Source: Sphingomonas sp. PAMC26645
GTDB lineage: Bacteria > Pseudomonadota > Alphaproteobacteria > Sphingomonadales > Sphingomonadaceae
Direction of reading: 5' to 3'
Assembly: GCF_004795835.1 (NCBI RefSeq)
Contig: NZ_CP039249.1
Span: 1,670,501-1,734,500, forward strand
DNA: 64,000 nucleotides
This document shows, in pieces, positions 1,769 to 7,870 of this stretch; the first letter of the stretch is position 1; each line of letters opens with the position of its first letter. A model generated the notes under the pieces. That model was not told where the DNA came from and made no database searches. It saw nothing but the letters and a program-made list of their open reading frames with translations. The position numbers were made by a program, and so were the translations under genes.

Positions 1769-2308
1769 TCAGGCGTTGCGCCACGCGCCGGGCTCCAGAC
1801 CTGCCACGGTCCAGTCGCCGATGCTCCACCGGACCAGCCGCAGCGTGGGGTGGTCGATCGCCGCGGTCATGCGGCGGACTTGGCGGTTGCGGCCTTCGCG
1901 GATCGTTATCTTCAGCCAGCAATCGGGGATGCTCGCGCGGACCCGGATCGGCGGCACGCGCGGCCAGAGGTCGGGTGTGGCGATCCGCTCGACGTCGGCG
2001 CGGGCAGGGCCATCCTTCAGCAGGACGCCGCCCCGCAACCGATCGAGCGCGTCCTCGCCGGCATCGCCCTCGACCTGCACGAGATAGGTCTTGGCCAGCT
2101 TGAACTTCGGGTCCGCGATCCGCGCCTGGAGGCGGCCGTCGTCGGTCAGCAGCAACAGCCCTTCGCTATCGCGGTCGAGCCGCCCCGCCGGATAGACGCC
2201 CGGCACATCGACGAACTGCGACAGCGTCGCGCGCGGGGTCGGACTGTTCACGTCGGTGAACTGGCTGAGGACGTCGTACGGTTTGTTGAACAGGATTACC
2301 CGGGGCAT
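1769..2308 (-). CDS. rluE: RsuA/RluE-family pseudouridine synthase
   Basis: The enzyme isomerises a uridine of rRNA to pseudouridine; the RluE subgroup acts on 23S rRNA. The 179 residues open with the family strand [16 protein letters not shown] and carry the catalytic block [19 protein letters not shown] (aspartate in GRLDRDSEG). KTYLVQVEG and the C-terminal [11 protein letters not shown], another hallmark, follow. There is no N-terminal S4 domain, which fits RluE rather than RsuA or RluB. The choice between RluE and a closely related member rests on length and motifs only. The neighbouring DNA on both sides looks acquired or repeat-derived. Confidence 0.88.
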
Positions 2309-2484
2309 GCCGGGGCTTTAGAGGGATTGTCGATAAGCTTCGACTGTAATTCCTGTCCTTACGAGATATGGATTACGAAACTGAAGGGCCGCTCCAGTCT
2401 TTCGCTCAGAGACCAGTCCGACACCACCGCATAAGTTGCGCTCCGTTCATCGTCCTCTTAAGTTGACGTCAAACGGGGGTGAAG

Positions 2485-3099
2485 ATGGCTAAACAGTCTG
2501 TACCGAAAGCGGGTGTTACCAAGGTACGTTTCCTAATGCTGGAGGCGGAGGGGTCGGAAAGCGACTTGAGTCAAATCTTCGCGGCGATTCAAAGCGCGGT
2601 AAAGCCGACAACCCAGATCATTCAGCAGCGCCTTGCACCAAGCAATTCAGCGACATTTATCGAGCAGGCATCCACCGACGTTGAGGACGCCGACGACGAT
2701 TTTTCGCCTGAGCCGGATGAGGTTGCAACAACTACTCCAAAGCGAACTCCGTCCGTCCGCGTCCGGAAACCGACCACGCCAGATGTTCTCGAATTCGATT
2801 TCCTCTCGGAATTATCGCTTCAGGATTTCGCAGATCGTCATGTTGATGTTGATAACGAACCTGACCGGTATCTGATAATCGCGGCTTGGTTCAAAGACCA
2901 TAGGGATGTATCGGCAGTTACCACATCCCACATCTATACTGCTTACCGGACGTTAGAATGGCCGGCTGGAATTGAAGACTTTGGATGGCCCTTTAGGTAT
3001 CTTAAGAAACAAAAATTCTTGGGCAGCACGACGCGTGGTGAGTTTGAAATAAACCACCTTGGTCTGGCAAAGGCGAAAAAGCTGAGCAAGACTGCGTGA
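2485..3099 (+). CDS. Hypothetical protein, winged-helix-like C-terminus; partner of a HEPN protein
   Basis: I do not recognise this 204-residue protein. Residues 12-45 (VRFLMLEAEGSESDLSQIFA and on) look like a small folded segment. Residues 60-100 are acidic and then Thr/Pro/Arg-rich, probably a linker. Residues 128-200 (DRYLIIAAWF, AYRTLEWP, PFRYLKKQKFLG, GEFEINHLGLAKAKK) have the helix-helix-hairpin pattern of a winged helix and resemble residues 20-92 of the next gene's product. ATG 2485 was chosen over GTG 2479 because a GGGGG ribosome site ends just before it. The stop overlaps the next start (GTGA). Base composition is visibly poorer in GC than the neighbours, suggesting transfer. A DNA- or nucleic-acid-binding sensor or antitoxin role is only a guess. 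Confidence 0.8.
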   Translation: MAKQSVPKAGVTKVRFLMLEAEGSESDLSQIFAAIQSAVKPTTQIIQQRLAPSNSATFIEQASTDVEDADDDFSPEPDEVATTTPKRTPSVRVRKPTTPDVLEFDFLSELSLQDFADRHVDVDNEPDRYLIIAAWFKDHRDVSAVTTSHIYTAYRTLEWPAGIEDFGWPFRYLKKQKFLGSTTRGEFEINHLGLAKAKKLSKTA

Positions 3100-3848
3100 G
3101 CGAAATTGAGGATTTCGCTAACTCAGTTCCCGGTTTCTATAAGAAAAACGGGGTGGATCAATTGCTGCTCTTGGCGTGGTTCGTTGAAGCGCGCCGTCAA
3201 AAATCATGTTTTGACGGTGCATACATGCGTCAGTGTTTCCGGGACAGTGGGGCTGACGCACCGGATATGAGCGTTTACCTGCCGCGACTTGCAGCGAAAA
3301 AGCCACCTCAGCTAATCTGTGAAAAAGGTGGTTATCGGCTAGCTGCAACATTGCGTCGAGATTTCGACAAACGGTTCAATGGTGATGTAACTATCCGAGC
3401 TATTACCCAAACGCTAGCTGCTCTCCCTGCCCAAGTTCCAAATATAGATGAGCGTATCTTTCTAAATGAGACGCTAAGCTGCTACCGAGCCGGTGCGTTT
3501 CGTGCGGCAACAGTGATGGCATGGAATCTAGCATACGATCACTTGACCAAATGGGCGGTGTCTTCCCCGGACCGCCTCGATGCGCTGAACGACGGTATAA
3601 AGCGAAAGATGCAGGGTAAGGCTGTCGTAGTAAAAGGGCAGGAAGACCTTATTGCGCTGAACGAGCGCACCGTCGTTGATTGCTGTCAAGTCGGCGGACT
3701 GATTGATAAAAATCAGACAGAAATTTTGCAAGAAAAGTTGAAGAGAAGAAATGCCGCCGCACATCCTTCCAAGGTGGTAATTGGTCAGCACCAAATTGAC
3801 GATACAATTAGTGATCTCGTCACAAACGTGGTTCTCGCTCTCCGCTGA
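3096..3848 (+). CDS. HEPN-motif protein (putative RNase effector) of a two-gene cassette
   Basis: The 250-residue product has a winged-helix-like N-terminus (residues 20-92: DQLLLLAWFV, YLPRLAAKKP, ICEKGGYRLAATLRRDF) that parallels the upstream protein. Its alpha-helical C-terminal half ends in KRRNAAAHPSK. R218-N219-x3-H223 is the canonical R(N/D/H)x3H catalytic motif of HEPN ribonucleases, and the preceding helices (FRAATVMAWNLAYDHLTKWA) fit a HEPN or abortive-infection C-terminal domain. The GTG start overlaps the upstream stop, so the two proteins are made together. The low GC content and the position between two core genes fit a mobile cassette. An RNA-cleaving toxin or phage-defence effector is inferred from the motif, not shown. 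I cannot assign it to a named system. Confidence 0.82.
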   Translation: MSEIEDFANSVPGFYKKNGVDQLLLLAWFVEARRQKSCFDGAYMRQCFRDSGADAPDMSVYLPRLAAKKPPQLICEKGGYRLAATLRRDFDKRFNGDVTIRAITQTLAALPAQVPNIDERIFLNETLSCYRAGAFRAATVMAWNLAYDHLTKWAVSSPDRLDALNDGIKRKMQGKAVVVKGQEDLIALNERTVVDCCQVGGLIDKNQTEILQEKLKRRNAAAHPSKVVIGQHQIDDTISDLVTNVVLALR

Positions 3849-3917
3849 AATTCACAGCTACTCCGCGCAGAACGTCGATGCATAAATTACTAAGCTACGA
3901 ATCTCTCCCTGGTTCGA

Positions 3918-3954
3918 CTAAAGAAAAAGGGCCGCGGTGTTTCCACCGCGGCCC
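3918..3954 (-). terminator. Rho-independent terminator of rpoD
   Basis: An 11-bp perfect stem (3929-3939 with 3944-3954, GGGCCGCGGTG) lies just past the rpoD stop. On the minus strand it is followed by a CTTTTTCTTT tract. Confidence 0.9.
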
Positions 3955-3980
3955 GTTCGTTCGATCAGCATCTCAAACCC

Positions 3981-6008
3981 TTACTGGTCGAGGAAGCTCC
4001 GCATCTTCCGGCTACGCGACGGATGCTTCAGCTTCCGCAGCGCCTTCGCCTCGATCTGGCGGATGCGCTCGCGGGTCACCGAGAACTGCTGGCCGACTTC
4101 CTCGAGCGTGTGATCGGTGTTCATGCCGATGCCGAAGCGCATGCGCAGCACGCGCTCCTCGCGCGGGGTGAGCGACGCCAGCACCCGCGTGACCGTCTCC
4201 TTCAAGTTCGCCTGGATCGCGGCATCCACCGGGATGATCGCGTTCTTGTCCTCGATGAAGTCGCCGAGATGCGAATCCTCCTCGTCGCCGATCGGCGTTT
4301 CGAGGCTGATCGGCTCCTTGGCGATCTTCATCACCTTGCGCACCTTCTCGAGTGGCATGGAGAGGCGCTCGGCCATCTCCTCCGGGGTCGGTTCGCGGCC
4401 CTGCTCGTGGAGGAACTGGCGGCTGGTGCGGACCAGCTTGTTGATCGTCTCGATCATGTGGACCGGGATGCGGATGGTCCGCGCCTGGTCCGCGATCGAG
4501 CGGGTGATCGCCTGGCGGATCCACCAGGTCGCATAGGTGCTGAACTTGTAGCCGCGACGATACTCGAACTTGTCGACCGCCTTCATCAGGCCGATATTGC
4601 CCTCCTGGATGAGATCCAGGAACTGCAGGCCGCGGTTCGTGTATTTCTTGGCGATCGAGATCACCAGCCGCAGGTTCGCCTCGACCATCTCCTTCTTGGC
4701 GATACGCGCCTCGCGCTCGCCCTTCTGGACCATGTTGACGATCCGGCGGAACTCGGTGAGCGCCATGCCGGTCTGCTGCGTGATGTCGGCGATCTCGGCA
4801 CGGATGCGCTCGACCGCCTCGCCCTCGTTCGCAACGAACGCGGTCCACTTCTTGTCGACCTTGTTGACCGTGGTCAGCCAGTTCTCGTCGATCTCGTGAC
4901 CGATATAGCGATCAAGGAAGTCCTTGCGCGGCACCTTGTGGCGCTCGGCGAGGCGCAGCATCTGGCCGCCCAGCGCGGTCAGGCGACGGTTATAGGCATA
5001 GAGCTGATCGACCAGATATTCGATCTTGGCGTTGTGGAACTGGACGCTCTCGACCTCGGCCGTGAGTTCCTCGCGCAGCTTCTGGTATTTGCGCTCGTCG
5101 GCCGCCGAGAAATCGCCGCCGATGCCCATCGCGTCGACGCGGGCTTGCTGGATCTTGCTGAACTTCTTGTAGAGCGCGGTGATGCTGGCGAACCGCTCGA
5201 GCGCGATTGGTTTCAGCTGCTCTTCCATCTGCGCGAGGCTGAGGGTGTTGTCCTCCTCCTCGTCGTCCGATGCGCGCGGGGCACGGCGCTCGCCGTCCTC
5301 GTCCTCGTCGGCGGACGGCTCTTCGGGCTCAGCCTCTTCCTTGAACGAGGGGCCGGCGTTCTTTTCGCTGATCTCGCCGTCGTCGGCTTCGCCGTCCTCG
5401 GCCATCGCTTCGGGGGCGGGGTCCTTCGACAGCATCGCGTCGAGATCCATGATCTCACGCAGCTGCATCGTGCCCTCGTTCAGCGCGGTCGACCAGTCGA
5501 TGATCGCGTTGAAGGTGATCGGCGATTCGCACAGACCCAGGATCATCGTGTCGCGACCCGCCTCGATGCGCTTGGCGATCGCGATCTCGCCCTCGCGGCT
5601 GAGCAGCTCGACCGCGCCCATCTCGCGCAGGTACATGCGGACCGGATCGTCGGTGCGATCGATCGTCTCTTTCTTCTTCTCGATCGCGGGGCCTGTGTCG
5701 GCATCCGCGTCGGCGGCCTCCGGCTCGTCCTCGTCGTCCTTGGCGGGCTCGGTCTCGCCGTCCTCGCCGGCTTCGTCGTTCTCGACGATGTTGATGCCCA
5801 TCTCGCTCAGCGCGGCGCTGATGTCCTCGATCTGGTCCGACGACATCTCGCCCTGCGGCAGCGCTTCGTTGAGCTGCTCATAGGTGATGTAGCCGCGCTT
5901 CTTGGCGCGCGCGATGACCTTCTTGATCGACGCATCGTTCATGTCGATCAGCGGCGCATCGCCGGTTTCGTTCGTCTCGGCGGGTTCCGCCATGTTCGCC
6001 TTAGCCAT
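3981..6008 (-). CDS. rpoD: RNA polymerase primary sigma factor RpoD (sigma-70)
   Basis: Primary sigma factor that directs core RNA polymerase to housekeeping promoters. The product has 675 residues. Region 1.1 is at the N-terminus ([20 protein letters not shown]). A very acidic stretch (about residues 75-110) precedes region 1.2 ([20 protein letters not shown]). A long acidic non-conserved region lies at about 205-255. Regions 2.3-2.4 read [20 protein letters not shown] and [10 protein letters not shown], and region 4.2 [20 protein letters not shown]. The ATG at 6008 was chosen; it overlaps the dnaG stop (TGATG). An in-frame TTG just upstream would add one residue. The dnaG-rpoD order is the classical macromolecular-synthesis arrangement without rpsU. 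A strong terminator follows. Confidence 0.98.
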
Positions 6009-7870
6009 CAATCGCCCTCGGTACCCAACGCTCGGGCGTCTTCGTTCGACTGTACAAGATTTGCAAGTCGGACTTCCAACGCCTGTTTCTCTCTTACCAT
6101 AGCCACTTGTCGTTCGAACGCATCTTCGGTGAAGTGCGTCTGCATCGCCGCGGTCGCCTGCTTGAGTGCCGCGTCTACCTCAGGGCGGGCGACCATGATC
6201 GCGATCGCCTCGTCGAGGTCGGCACGGACGCGGGCTGGATCGGCCGTGGTCTGCGTGAACGAATAGGGCATCGTATCGGCTCTCAACAGGTCACTCGCGA
6301 CTGAATTGAAACCGGACCTCGCCAATATGGTGAGCAAGCGCCCGCTATCAAGCTTCTGGTCCTCAAGTGCAACATCTACGACCGCTTCGAACAATCGCCC
6401 GAGCGCGCCGTCGATCATTTGCAGCGAGCCTAGCACCTCCATGTGGCGCGCGATCTCGACCGGGTGGCGGATCAGGCCGGCGAGGACGGCCTTCGCCAGG
6501 ACGCGGTCGATGCCGGTGGCGAGGAAGGCCTTCGCGTCTTCGGTGACGGGCGCGGCGGGGGGCTTCCAGCCGCCTTTCGGGCGTTCACCGCGGGGGACGA
6601 AGGGCGCGCGGACGGGTTTGAAATGCTCGTAGAAGCGGTTCTTGAACTCGGCGTGATATTGCTGCTTCACCGACGGGTCGGCGATGCCTTCCGCGAGTTC
6701 GTGGAGGCGGCGCTTGAGGCCGGCGCGCTGTTCGGGGGTGTCGAGCGCCTCGGCGGCGACTTCGGACGCCCAGAGCCGGTCGACGAGCTGTTCGGGGGTT
6801 TTCAGCAACGCCTCGAAGGCGGCGGGACCGCCGGCGCGGACGAGGTCGTCGGGGTCCTGGCCTTGCGGGAGCGTGACGAAGGCGAGGCTGCGGCTGGGCG
6901 CCAGTAGCGGGAGCGCGCGGTGGGCGGCCCGGAGCGACGCCTTCTGGCCGGCGCCGTCGCCGTCGAAGCAGAGCAGGGGGACGTCGACCATCCGCCACAG
7001 TCGCTCGAGCTGCGCTTCGGTCAATGCCGTGCCGAGCGGGGCGACCGCTTCGCCGAAACCGGCCTGGGCGAGCGCGATGACGTCCATATAGCCTTCGACC
7101 ACCAGAACGCGGCCGGACTTGCGCGAGGCGGGGGCGGCCTTGTCGAGATTGTAGAGCGTGCGGCCCTTGTCGAAGAGCGGCGTGTCGGGGGAGTTGAGGT
7201 ATTTCGGCTCGCCGCCGTCGAGCACGCGCCCGCCGAACGCGATCGTCCGCCCGCGGGGGTCGCGGATCGGGATCATCAGGCGGCCGCGGAACCGGTCGTA
7301 CGGGTCCTTGCCCTCGACATTGATGAGCATGCCGGACTCGACCAGCATGGGGTCGCCGTACTCCTTCAGCGCGGTCTTGAGCTTGCCGCGTGAGTCCGGG
7401 GCGAACCCCATGCCGAACGCGCGCGCCGTCTCGGGCCTGATCCCGCGGCGGTCGAGGAGCGCGCGCGCGTCGGTGCCGGGGAGGCCGTTGAGTTGTTCCG
7501 TGAACCAGTCGGCGGCGTCCGACATGACCTCGTGCAGGCCCTTGGCGCGCTCGGCCTTGGCGGCGGACTGGCGGTCCATCGCCGGCATGTCCATCCCGGC
7601 GGCCTGCGCGAGCTCCTTCACCGCGTCCATGAAAGGGAGACCGCGCTGGTCGGTCATCCACTTGATCGCGTCGCCGTGCGCGGAGCAGCCGAAGCAATGG
7701 TAGAAGCCCTTGTCGTCGTTGACGTAGAACGAGGGCGTCTTCTCGTTGTGGAACGGGCAGCAGCCCTTGTGCTCGCGCCCGGCCTTGGTGAGCTTGGTGG
7801 TCTTGCCGACGAGCGCCGAGAGCGAGGTGCGGGCGCGGAGTTCGTCGAGGAATTGTGGGGTTAGCGCCAT
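6008..7870 (-). CDS. dnaG: DNA primase DnaG
   Basis: DnaG makes RNA primers for lagging-strand synthesis and interacts with the replicative helicase. The 620-residue product contains the N-terminal CHC2 zinc finger ([12 protein letters not shown] and [13 protein letters not shown]), the catalytic core with the RMMIPIRD-type segment ([20 protein letters not shown]), the Toprim block ([15 protein letters not shown], then [11 protein letters not shown]), and a C-terminal helicase-interaction domain. The stop overlaps the rpoD start. The 5' end overlaps the last ten bases of the upstream DUF559 gene, and REP-like palindromes lie immediately upstream in that gene's 3' end. A dnaG promoter may therefore lie inside the DUF559 gene. 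Confidence 0.97.

Follow-up and report, generated by a model that had tools for sequence, protein, structure and literature searches.

A putative two-gene HEPN defence module shared by phages and a variable slot beside rpoD in Sphingomonas

A low-GC gene pair beside rpoD

The window analysed here is a 64,000-nucleotide stretch of the Sphingomonas sp. PAMC26645 genome (contig NZ_CP039249.1, positions 1,670,501 to 1,734,500). We find that it carries a pair of plus-strand open reading frames (ORFs) that overlap by 4 bp, as an earlier reading of the sequence alone had described: ORF1 (2485..3099, 204 amino acids (aa) from an ATG start, with an alternative in-frame GTG start possible at 2479) and ORF2 (3096..3848, 250 aa from a GTG start), which joins a winged helix to a HEPN domain and is a proposed ribonuclease (RNase) effector. 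The pair lies between two minus-strand genes that, judged by their sequences, we take to be a pseudouridine-synthase gene of the RluB/E-RsuA kind (1769-2308) and rpoD (3981-6011). The lower guanine-plus-cytosine (GC) content attributed to this cassette is borne out, with a value of 0.501 against a mean of 0.656 (standard deviation 0.036) for same-size windows across the 64 kb. Only five of 1253 such windows are as low, and all five cover the cassette; those below 0.55 all start within 2001-3101, and at this size the cassette is the sole low-GC part of the window. The surrounding variable cargo slot (2336..3923, no strand) runs from the synthase gene to a GC-rich stem-loop downstream of rpoD (3929..3954, minus strand, read in the sequence), which forms its right edge; a similar stem-loop adjoins rpoD in the 11 genomes displayed.

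Predicted domains of ORF2 and ORF1

The predicted structure of ORF2 places a winged helix (residues 16-96; 3141..3383, plus strand) ahead of a HEPN helical bundle (residues 113-250; 3432..3845, plus strand), and the sequence also matches a solved HEPN domain. Two features expected of the HEPN superfamily, the helical-bundle fold and an RX4-6H motif, are present, so that the HEPN assignment of the sequence-only reading stands; no structure without the bundle was found. The motif, R218-N-A-A-A-H223 (3747..3764, plus strand), is proposed to be catalytic on the basis of conservation: R218 and H223 are invariant in 13 of 13 rows of the ORF2 alignment, and RX4HP is kept in all 26 sense frames matching the ORF2 profile (25 distinct places, among them a fragment of 53 aa and four longer proteins like PD-T7-3), a profile that itself contains RX4HP and so favours motif-bearing matches. 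An RX4-6H string alone is weak, with two in the ORF2 open frame, and the motif carries weight because it is conserved across these matches. Family searches (Pfam, PHROGs, NCBIfam and PADLOC) return only weak matches to ORF2, the best being phrog_27609, of unknown function, at 3e-4.

ORF1 is built of three parts: a conserved N-terminal segment (approximately residues 11-45; 2515..2619, plus strand), which is seen in the alignment of relatives and has a low to middling predicted local distance difference test (pLDDT) score, an acidic low-confidence linker and a C-terminal winged helix (residues 117-204; 2833..3096, plus strand; predicted structure). Only about 40 further residues are conserved beyond the winged helix, and the model as a whole has a pLDDT of 70.4. 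No family is assigned to ORF1 from Pfam, PHROGs, NCBIfam or PADLOC, neither ORF1 nor its relatives have a Pfam match above cut-off, and a search of the PDB with the ORF1 profile yields a best E-value of only 0.52. We took a match to Mrr_N (0.0044, below the curated cut-off) as winged-helix likeness only. The similar segments that had been pointed out in the two proteins both model as winged helices, and their resemblance is genuine, if weak (hhalign E 6.5e-5, probability 64%, ORF2 3-84 against ORF1 111-190).

These domains can be read in more than one way. MtlR (6kcr) and YggD (3c8g), a possible regulator, are among the fold matches of ORF2 and, together with the presence of two winged helices, would suit a prophage regulatory pair that binds DNA in the vicinity of the terminase or lysogeny region and uses HEPN as a non-enzymatic dimerisation domain; a scaffold of this kind would have no need of the RX4HP found in every profile match. 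The HEPN fold also resembles HepT, and this likeness, the winged helix of ORF1 and the order of ORF1 before ORF2 with a 4-bp overlap are all compatible with a type II toxin-antitoxin pair whose main role is to stabilise mobile elements, with ORF2 as HEPN toxin and ORF1 as antitoxin and, through its winged helix, autorepressor. Antitoxins are usually smaller than the 204-aa, three-part ORF1, and Pfam finds neither a minimal nucleotidyltransferase (MNT; no match at E up to 10) nor any other known antitoxin domain in it, which argues against such a pair.

Distribution of the pair

In counts that include the window's own genome throughout, the ORF2 query finds a match in 2 of 61 relatives, in 6 of the 296 genomes sampled from the order (a fragment and a distant match at 1e-24 among them) and in 7 of 398 genomes of a phylum sample. 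The last comprise the window's genome and one strong match, one match at 1.5e-28 and four between 1e-5 and 1e-9, and several of the matches in these samples are at the HEPN level only. The pair is rare and scattered across genomes. A search of genome contigs gives seven loci, in Sinorhizobium, Novosphingobium, Mesorhizobium, a Rhodobacteraceae metagenome-assembled genome (MAG) and MAGs labelled Eremiobacterota, Opitutaceae and Gammaproteobacteria.

Defining a strong locus by an ORF2 match with E <1e-50, we find 18 distinct strong loci, 17 of which have an ORF1 match directly upstream of ORF2; this upstream match is split over two frames in L004 and L008 and is weak in L030 (1.3e-4). In the eighteenth, L028 (the same place as L002), the related upstream frame is broken and lies outside the reach of the ORF1 profile. 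The strong paired loci come from Alpha- and Gammaproteobacteria, from MAGs with the labels Eremiobacterota and Opitutaceae, from a plasmid and from viral contigs. Solitary core genes, which would have spoken against a mobile module, are thus not what the homologues prove to be: they are paired, and they occur on viral contigs, on a plasmid, in an integrase-linked island and in a slot shared with defence genes. More distant HEPN relatives of ORF2 lie at L018 767-2247, L028 3946-4701, L032 8031-8855 and L034 7690-8718; by eye, the upstream partner in L018 and L032 starts with a short '..IEG/YEG..' segment, and the family therefore appears wider than the pair described here.

Mobile contexts and a terminase-side slot in phages

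An alignment-based scan finds the pair on five viral contigs; a single-sequence viral scan gives no match, and no named phage matches ORF2 of the window or of the viral locus L011. In L011, L012 and L013 the pair is divergent to, and beside, the genes for the terminase small and large subunits and the portal protein. PHROGs identifies these in L011 (small subunit 9.1e-4, large subunit 7e-138, portal 8e-93); in L012 and L013, where the small subunit alone was queried, it gives no match, the L013 subunit being 81% identical to that of L011 and the L012 subunit alike by eye. L013 also carries an integrase (phrog_95, 2e-73), and genes near the pair include an Erf-like gene in L014 and NinB and HNH genes in L015.

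Other settings are likewise mobile. The pair stands immediately behind a phage-type integrase (Pfam 5.3e-26) near a tRNA-Ser gene in L010. Among plasmids one record is matched, reached by two queries; L003, a RepABC plasmid, also carries IS66, VapBC and an integrase, and such a location would suit a toxin-antitoxin pair as well. In Novosphingobium huizhouense (L005), genes for a DNA methylase and for a NucS-like protein lie at most 5 kb upstream. Behind the pair in L008 (9029-10913) we observe a MarR-like helix-turn-helix gene and a second gene, nucleotidyltransferase-like by eye and with no Pfam family, which together resemble an AbiE-type pair.

In ten viral records, that of L013 included, the terminase small subunit reaches 80% identity or more with that of L013 (three further records at approximately 40% were excluded). 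The pair is carried by two of the ten, those of L011 and L013 themselves; seven have other genes there, and one (L136) has too little sequence at this position. L012, which is not one of the ten, likewise has the pair next to its small subunit. The alternative cargo includes an AbiV-type protein in L132 (HEPN_AbiV 1e-14), with which a PDB search finds nothing at 0.01, and an AAA_21 protein in L129 (1.5e-12). Upstream of the small subunit, L127-L136 show a variable cargo slot in which P-loop and DUF2971-like proteins are seen by eye. The defence hotspots described beside cos in P2/P4 phages (PMC9122126) are a plausible parallel, as they too hold variable defence cargo beside the packaging region, which here means next to the terminase small subunit. 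They belong to different phages, and the present slot is known by terminase rather than by cos and has a chromosomal counterpart beside rpoD.

Phage carriage bears on two alternatives. In five viral contigs the pair adjoins terminase or early genes, which would fit a prophage regulator, whereas it also occurs outside phages at different chromosomal places, other phages of the group carry other cargo at the same position, and no shared operator is evident by eye in 11 regions upstream of ORF1 (no motif search was run); we regard a regulatory role as improbable. Carriage beside structural genes could also indicate a counter-defence or host-takeover pair that serves the phage rather than protecting the host, a reading that we consider very improbable given that bacterial chromosomes carry the pair at a distance from phage genes, in a slot that it has in common with known defence families.

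A variable slot beside rpoD

In G018, the first relative compared, rpoD is 99.5% identical over 570 aa and the flanks match the window up to approximately 2335 and again from approximately 3924-3925, at the edge of the rpoD stem-loop, while the cargo between them is a different low-GC two-gene set. Twenty-four of 295 genomes of the genus, the window's own included, have an rpoD DNA match at E 1e-262 or better. This cut was chosen with the GC content beside rpoD already in view and narrowly excludes G725 (3.9e-260), a genome without low-GC cargo; the occupancy of 24 out of 24 is therefore a property of a clade, not of the genus. In each of the 24 the pseudouridine-synthase gene lies at the opposite end, with 1032-2004 bp between and a GC content of 0.441-0.587, where the upper value, that of G846, is hardly low, the rpoD end is known only to approximately 60 bp in three genomes and the synthase match of G738 is partial. 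No empty slot is found among the 24. They hold 21 kinds of cargo (1.0-2.0 kb), a count that follows from three genome pairs having their main cargo in common, and several other cargoes have terminal segments of 150-450 bp in common. Among 30 rpoD loci, 19 less related ones (L072-L090) are high in GC over the 1500 bp next to rpoD, and in five other genus members the 16 kb examined at the synthase gene contain no rpoD. We can only infer that cargo is exchanged by recombination in the flanks, because there is no tRNA gene in the 64 kb window, no slot protein was recognised as an integrase, and a reading of the slot borders of 11 genomes by eye revealed no conspicuous terminal repeats.

We then scanned 20 proteins from 18 of the 20 other cargo kinds (leaving aside G868 and G846 as well as some small second genes), and find a PADLOC match at E 1e-4 or better in 8 of the 18, a rate that comes without a matched control. 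These are bSEFIR (G867, 9.6e-63), NsnA (G800, 1.6e-20, with PD-T4-2_A beside Pfam HEPN_MAE_28990 at 5.4e-22), HNH effector models (G024, 4.2e-20, HNH part only), BstA over its C-terminal part (G916, 1e-14, with KilA-N), PD-T7-4 (G785, 7.5e-12, with DUF4145), AbiZ over 68 residues (G788, 1.7e-10), a TIR effector (G762, 1.9e-8) and AbiV (G756, 5.1e-5; Pfam HEPN_AbiV 7.8e-16). The remaining 10 kinds have no PADLOC match at 1e-4. Two families picked because they had already been seen in the slot, bSEFIR and HEPN_AbiV, each occur at three places in the 24 genomes at E 1e-5, one of them in the slot, against approximately 0.001 slot places each predicted from the slot's share of the genome; the ORF2 profile finds one place, the window's own. 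Such company, with abortive-infection and TIR/SEFIR families among the co-occupants, argues further against a toxin-antitoxin pair that mainly stabilises mobile elements, which we consider rather unlikely, and this reading overlaps with a defence role, of which toxin-antitoxin pairs are also capable.

Both slots, phage-side and rpoD-side, contain AbiV-type proteins as well as the HEPN pair. With these two cargo kinds in common, the route of defence-gene traffic between phage and chromosome becomes testable. The rpoD-side slot also offers a compact screen, in which a single site yields 21 kinds of 1-2 kb cargo across 24 related genomes; as 8 of 18 scanned non-window kinds match PADLOC, the unmatched cargoes, the pair included, are ready candidates for testing. 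Across the slot loci (window 2309-3980; L055, L091-L099, L113-L125), the kinds unmatched by PADLOC may be new systems, examples being the slot proteins of G895, G873 and G034, which show RN...H strings by eye. The open-access literature searched, a scope with bioRxiv and most subscription papers outside it, yields no published rpoD-side defence slot, no description of the pair and no paper on Dandelion defence.

Comparison with known systems

Among the known systems closest to the pair are PD-T7-3, named as a defence protein in PMC9519451, PMC10799925 and PMC10952713, and 'Dandelion' (PDB 9wx2, 9wxf), which presumably form one family. Their HEPN domain is homologous to that of ORF2 and has RX4H followed by P, as in ORF2; the profile match to Dandelion-hepn is 2.8e-6, and PADLOC PD-T7-3 matches are found for ORF2 of L011 (5.5e-8), L009 (1.2e-5) and the window (0.003), spanning only positions 19-121 of the 432-position profile (18-121 for L011). 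Unlike the pair, these are single proteins (the Dandelion chain has 460 aa) with HEPN near the N-terminus and a C-terminal part of their own family, whereas the HEPN domain of ORF2 is C-terminal, behind a winged helix, and a second gene stands upstream in nearly all strong loci. HEPN-MNT systems (HepT/MntA) differ in that the partner here is a winged-helix protein and not a minimal nucleotidyltransferase, and AbiV belongs to a different HEPN family, Pfam HEPN_AbiV failing to match ORF2.

Tha, by its description, is the nearest working analogue that we encountered. According to PMC11087260, this 301-aa Staphylococcus prophage defence protein has a C-terminal HEPN domain with an R-NSIM-H motif and is a non-specific RNase activated by tail proteins, the RX4H histidine being required for defence. 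It resembles the pair in being prophage-borne and in its C-terminal HEPN with an RX4H-type motif; it differs in having an N-terminal part without a recognised domain and an inhibitor in a noncontiguous operon rather than an overlapping winged-helix partner. The winged-helix passages of a HEPN survey (PMC3710099) place such helices in larger proteins with restriction endonuclease, helicase or other parts, and the terms 'winged' and 'wHTH' are absent from the main text on DefensePredictor (PMC13092281). We file the pair as putative HEPN-effector defence, outside PD-T7-3, HEPN-MNT and AbiV. The two-gene HEPN architecture is absent from the defence libraries used (PADLOC 2023, Pfam and NCBIfam), in keeping with the earlier failure to match it to a named system.

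A model for the pair

Taken together, we think it fairly probable that the pair is a mobile two-gene anti-phage module of the abortive-infection type, with a HEPN RNase effector and a gating partner. The predicted fold, the motif, the pairing, phage carriage and slot sharing support this defence reading, as does the genomic association with defence genes and mobile elements (the PADLOC rate again uncontrolled), and the suggestion that the cassette is a toxin or phage-defence module gains support from its contexts, the toxic or protective activity itself being putative. In the proposed mechanism, ORF2 would be the effector, an RNase with RX4H as its catalytic site that probably dimerises through the HEPN domain and whose N-terminal winged helix would serve in docking or in nucleic-acid binding. 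ORF1 would act as gate and sensor, keeping ORF2 inactive and relaying an infection cue; infection would then release the nuclease, which would cut RNA and halt phage growth. The module would spread via temperate phages and here would have settled in a one-cargo slot beside rpoD.

More tentatively, the related winged helices of the two proteins could pair with each other to gate the RNase in a two-protein immune system. This system might be exchanged between the terminase-side phage slot and the sphingomonad slot beside rpoD, the latter being filled in all genomes seen and, on this view, taking in different defence modules in turn. To the left of that slot, at 1571-1656 of the window, lies a large imperfect inverted repeat (gtcatcctgacgagagtcaggaccc ... 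gggtcctgactttcgtcaggatgacgg) that is REP-like (repetitive extragenic palindrome) by eye.
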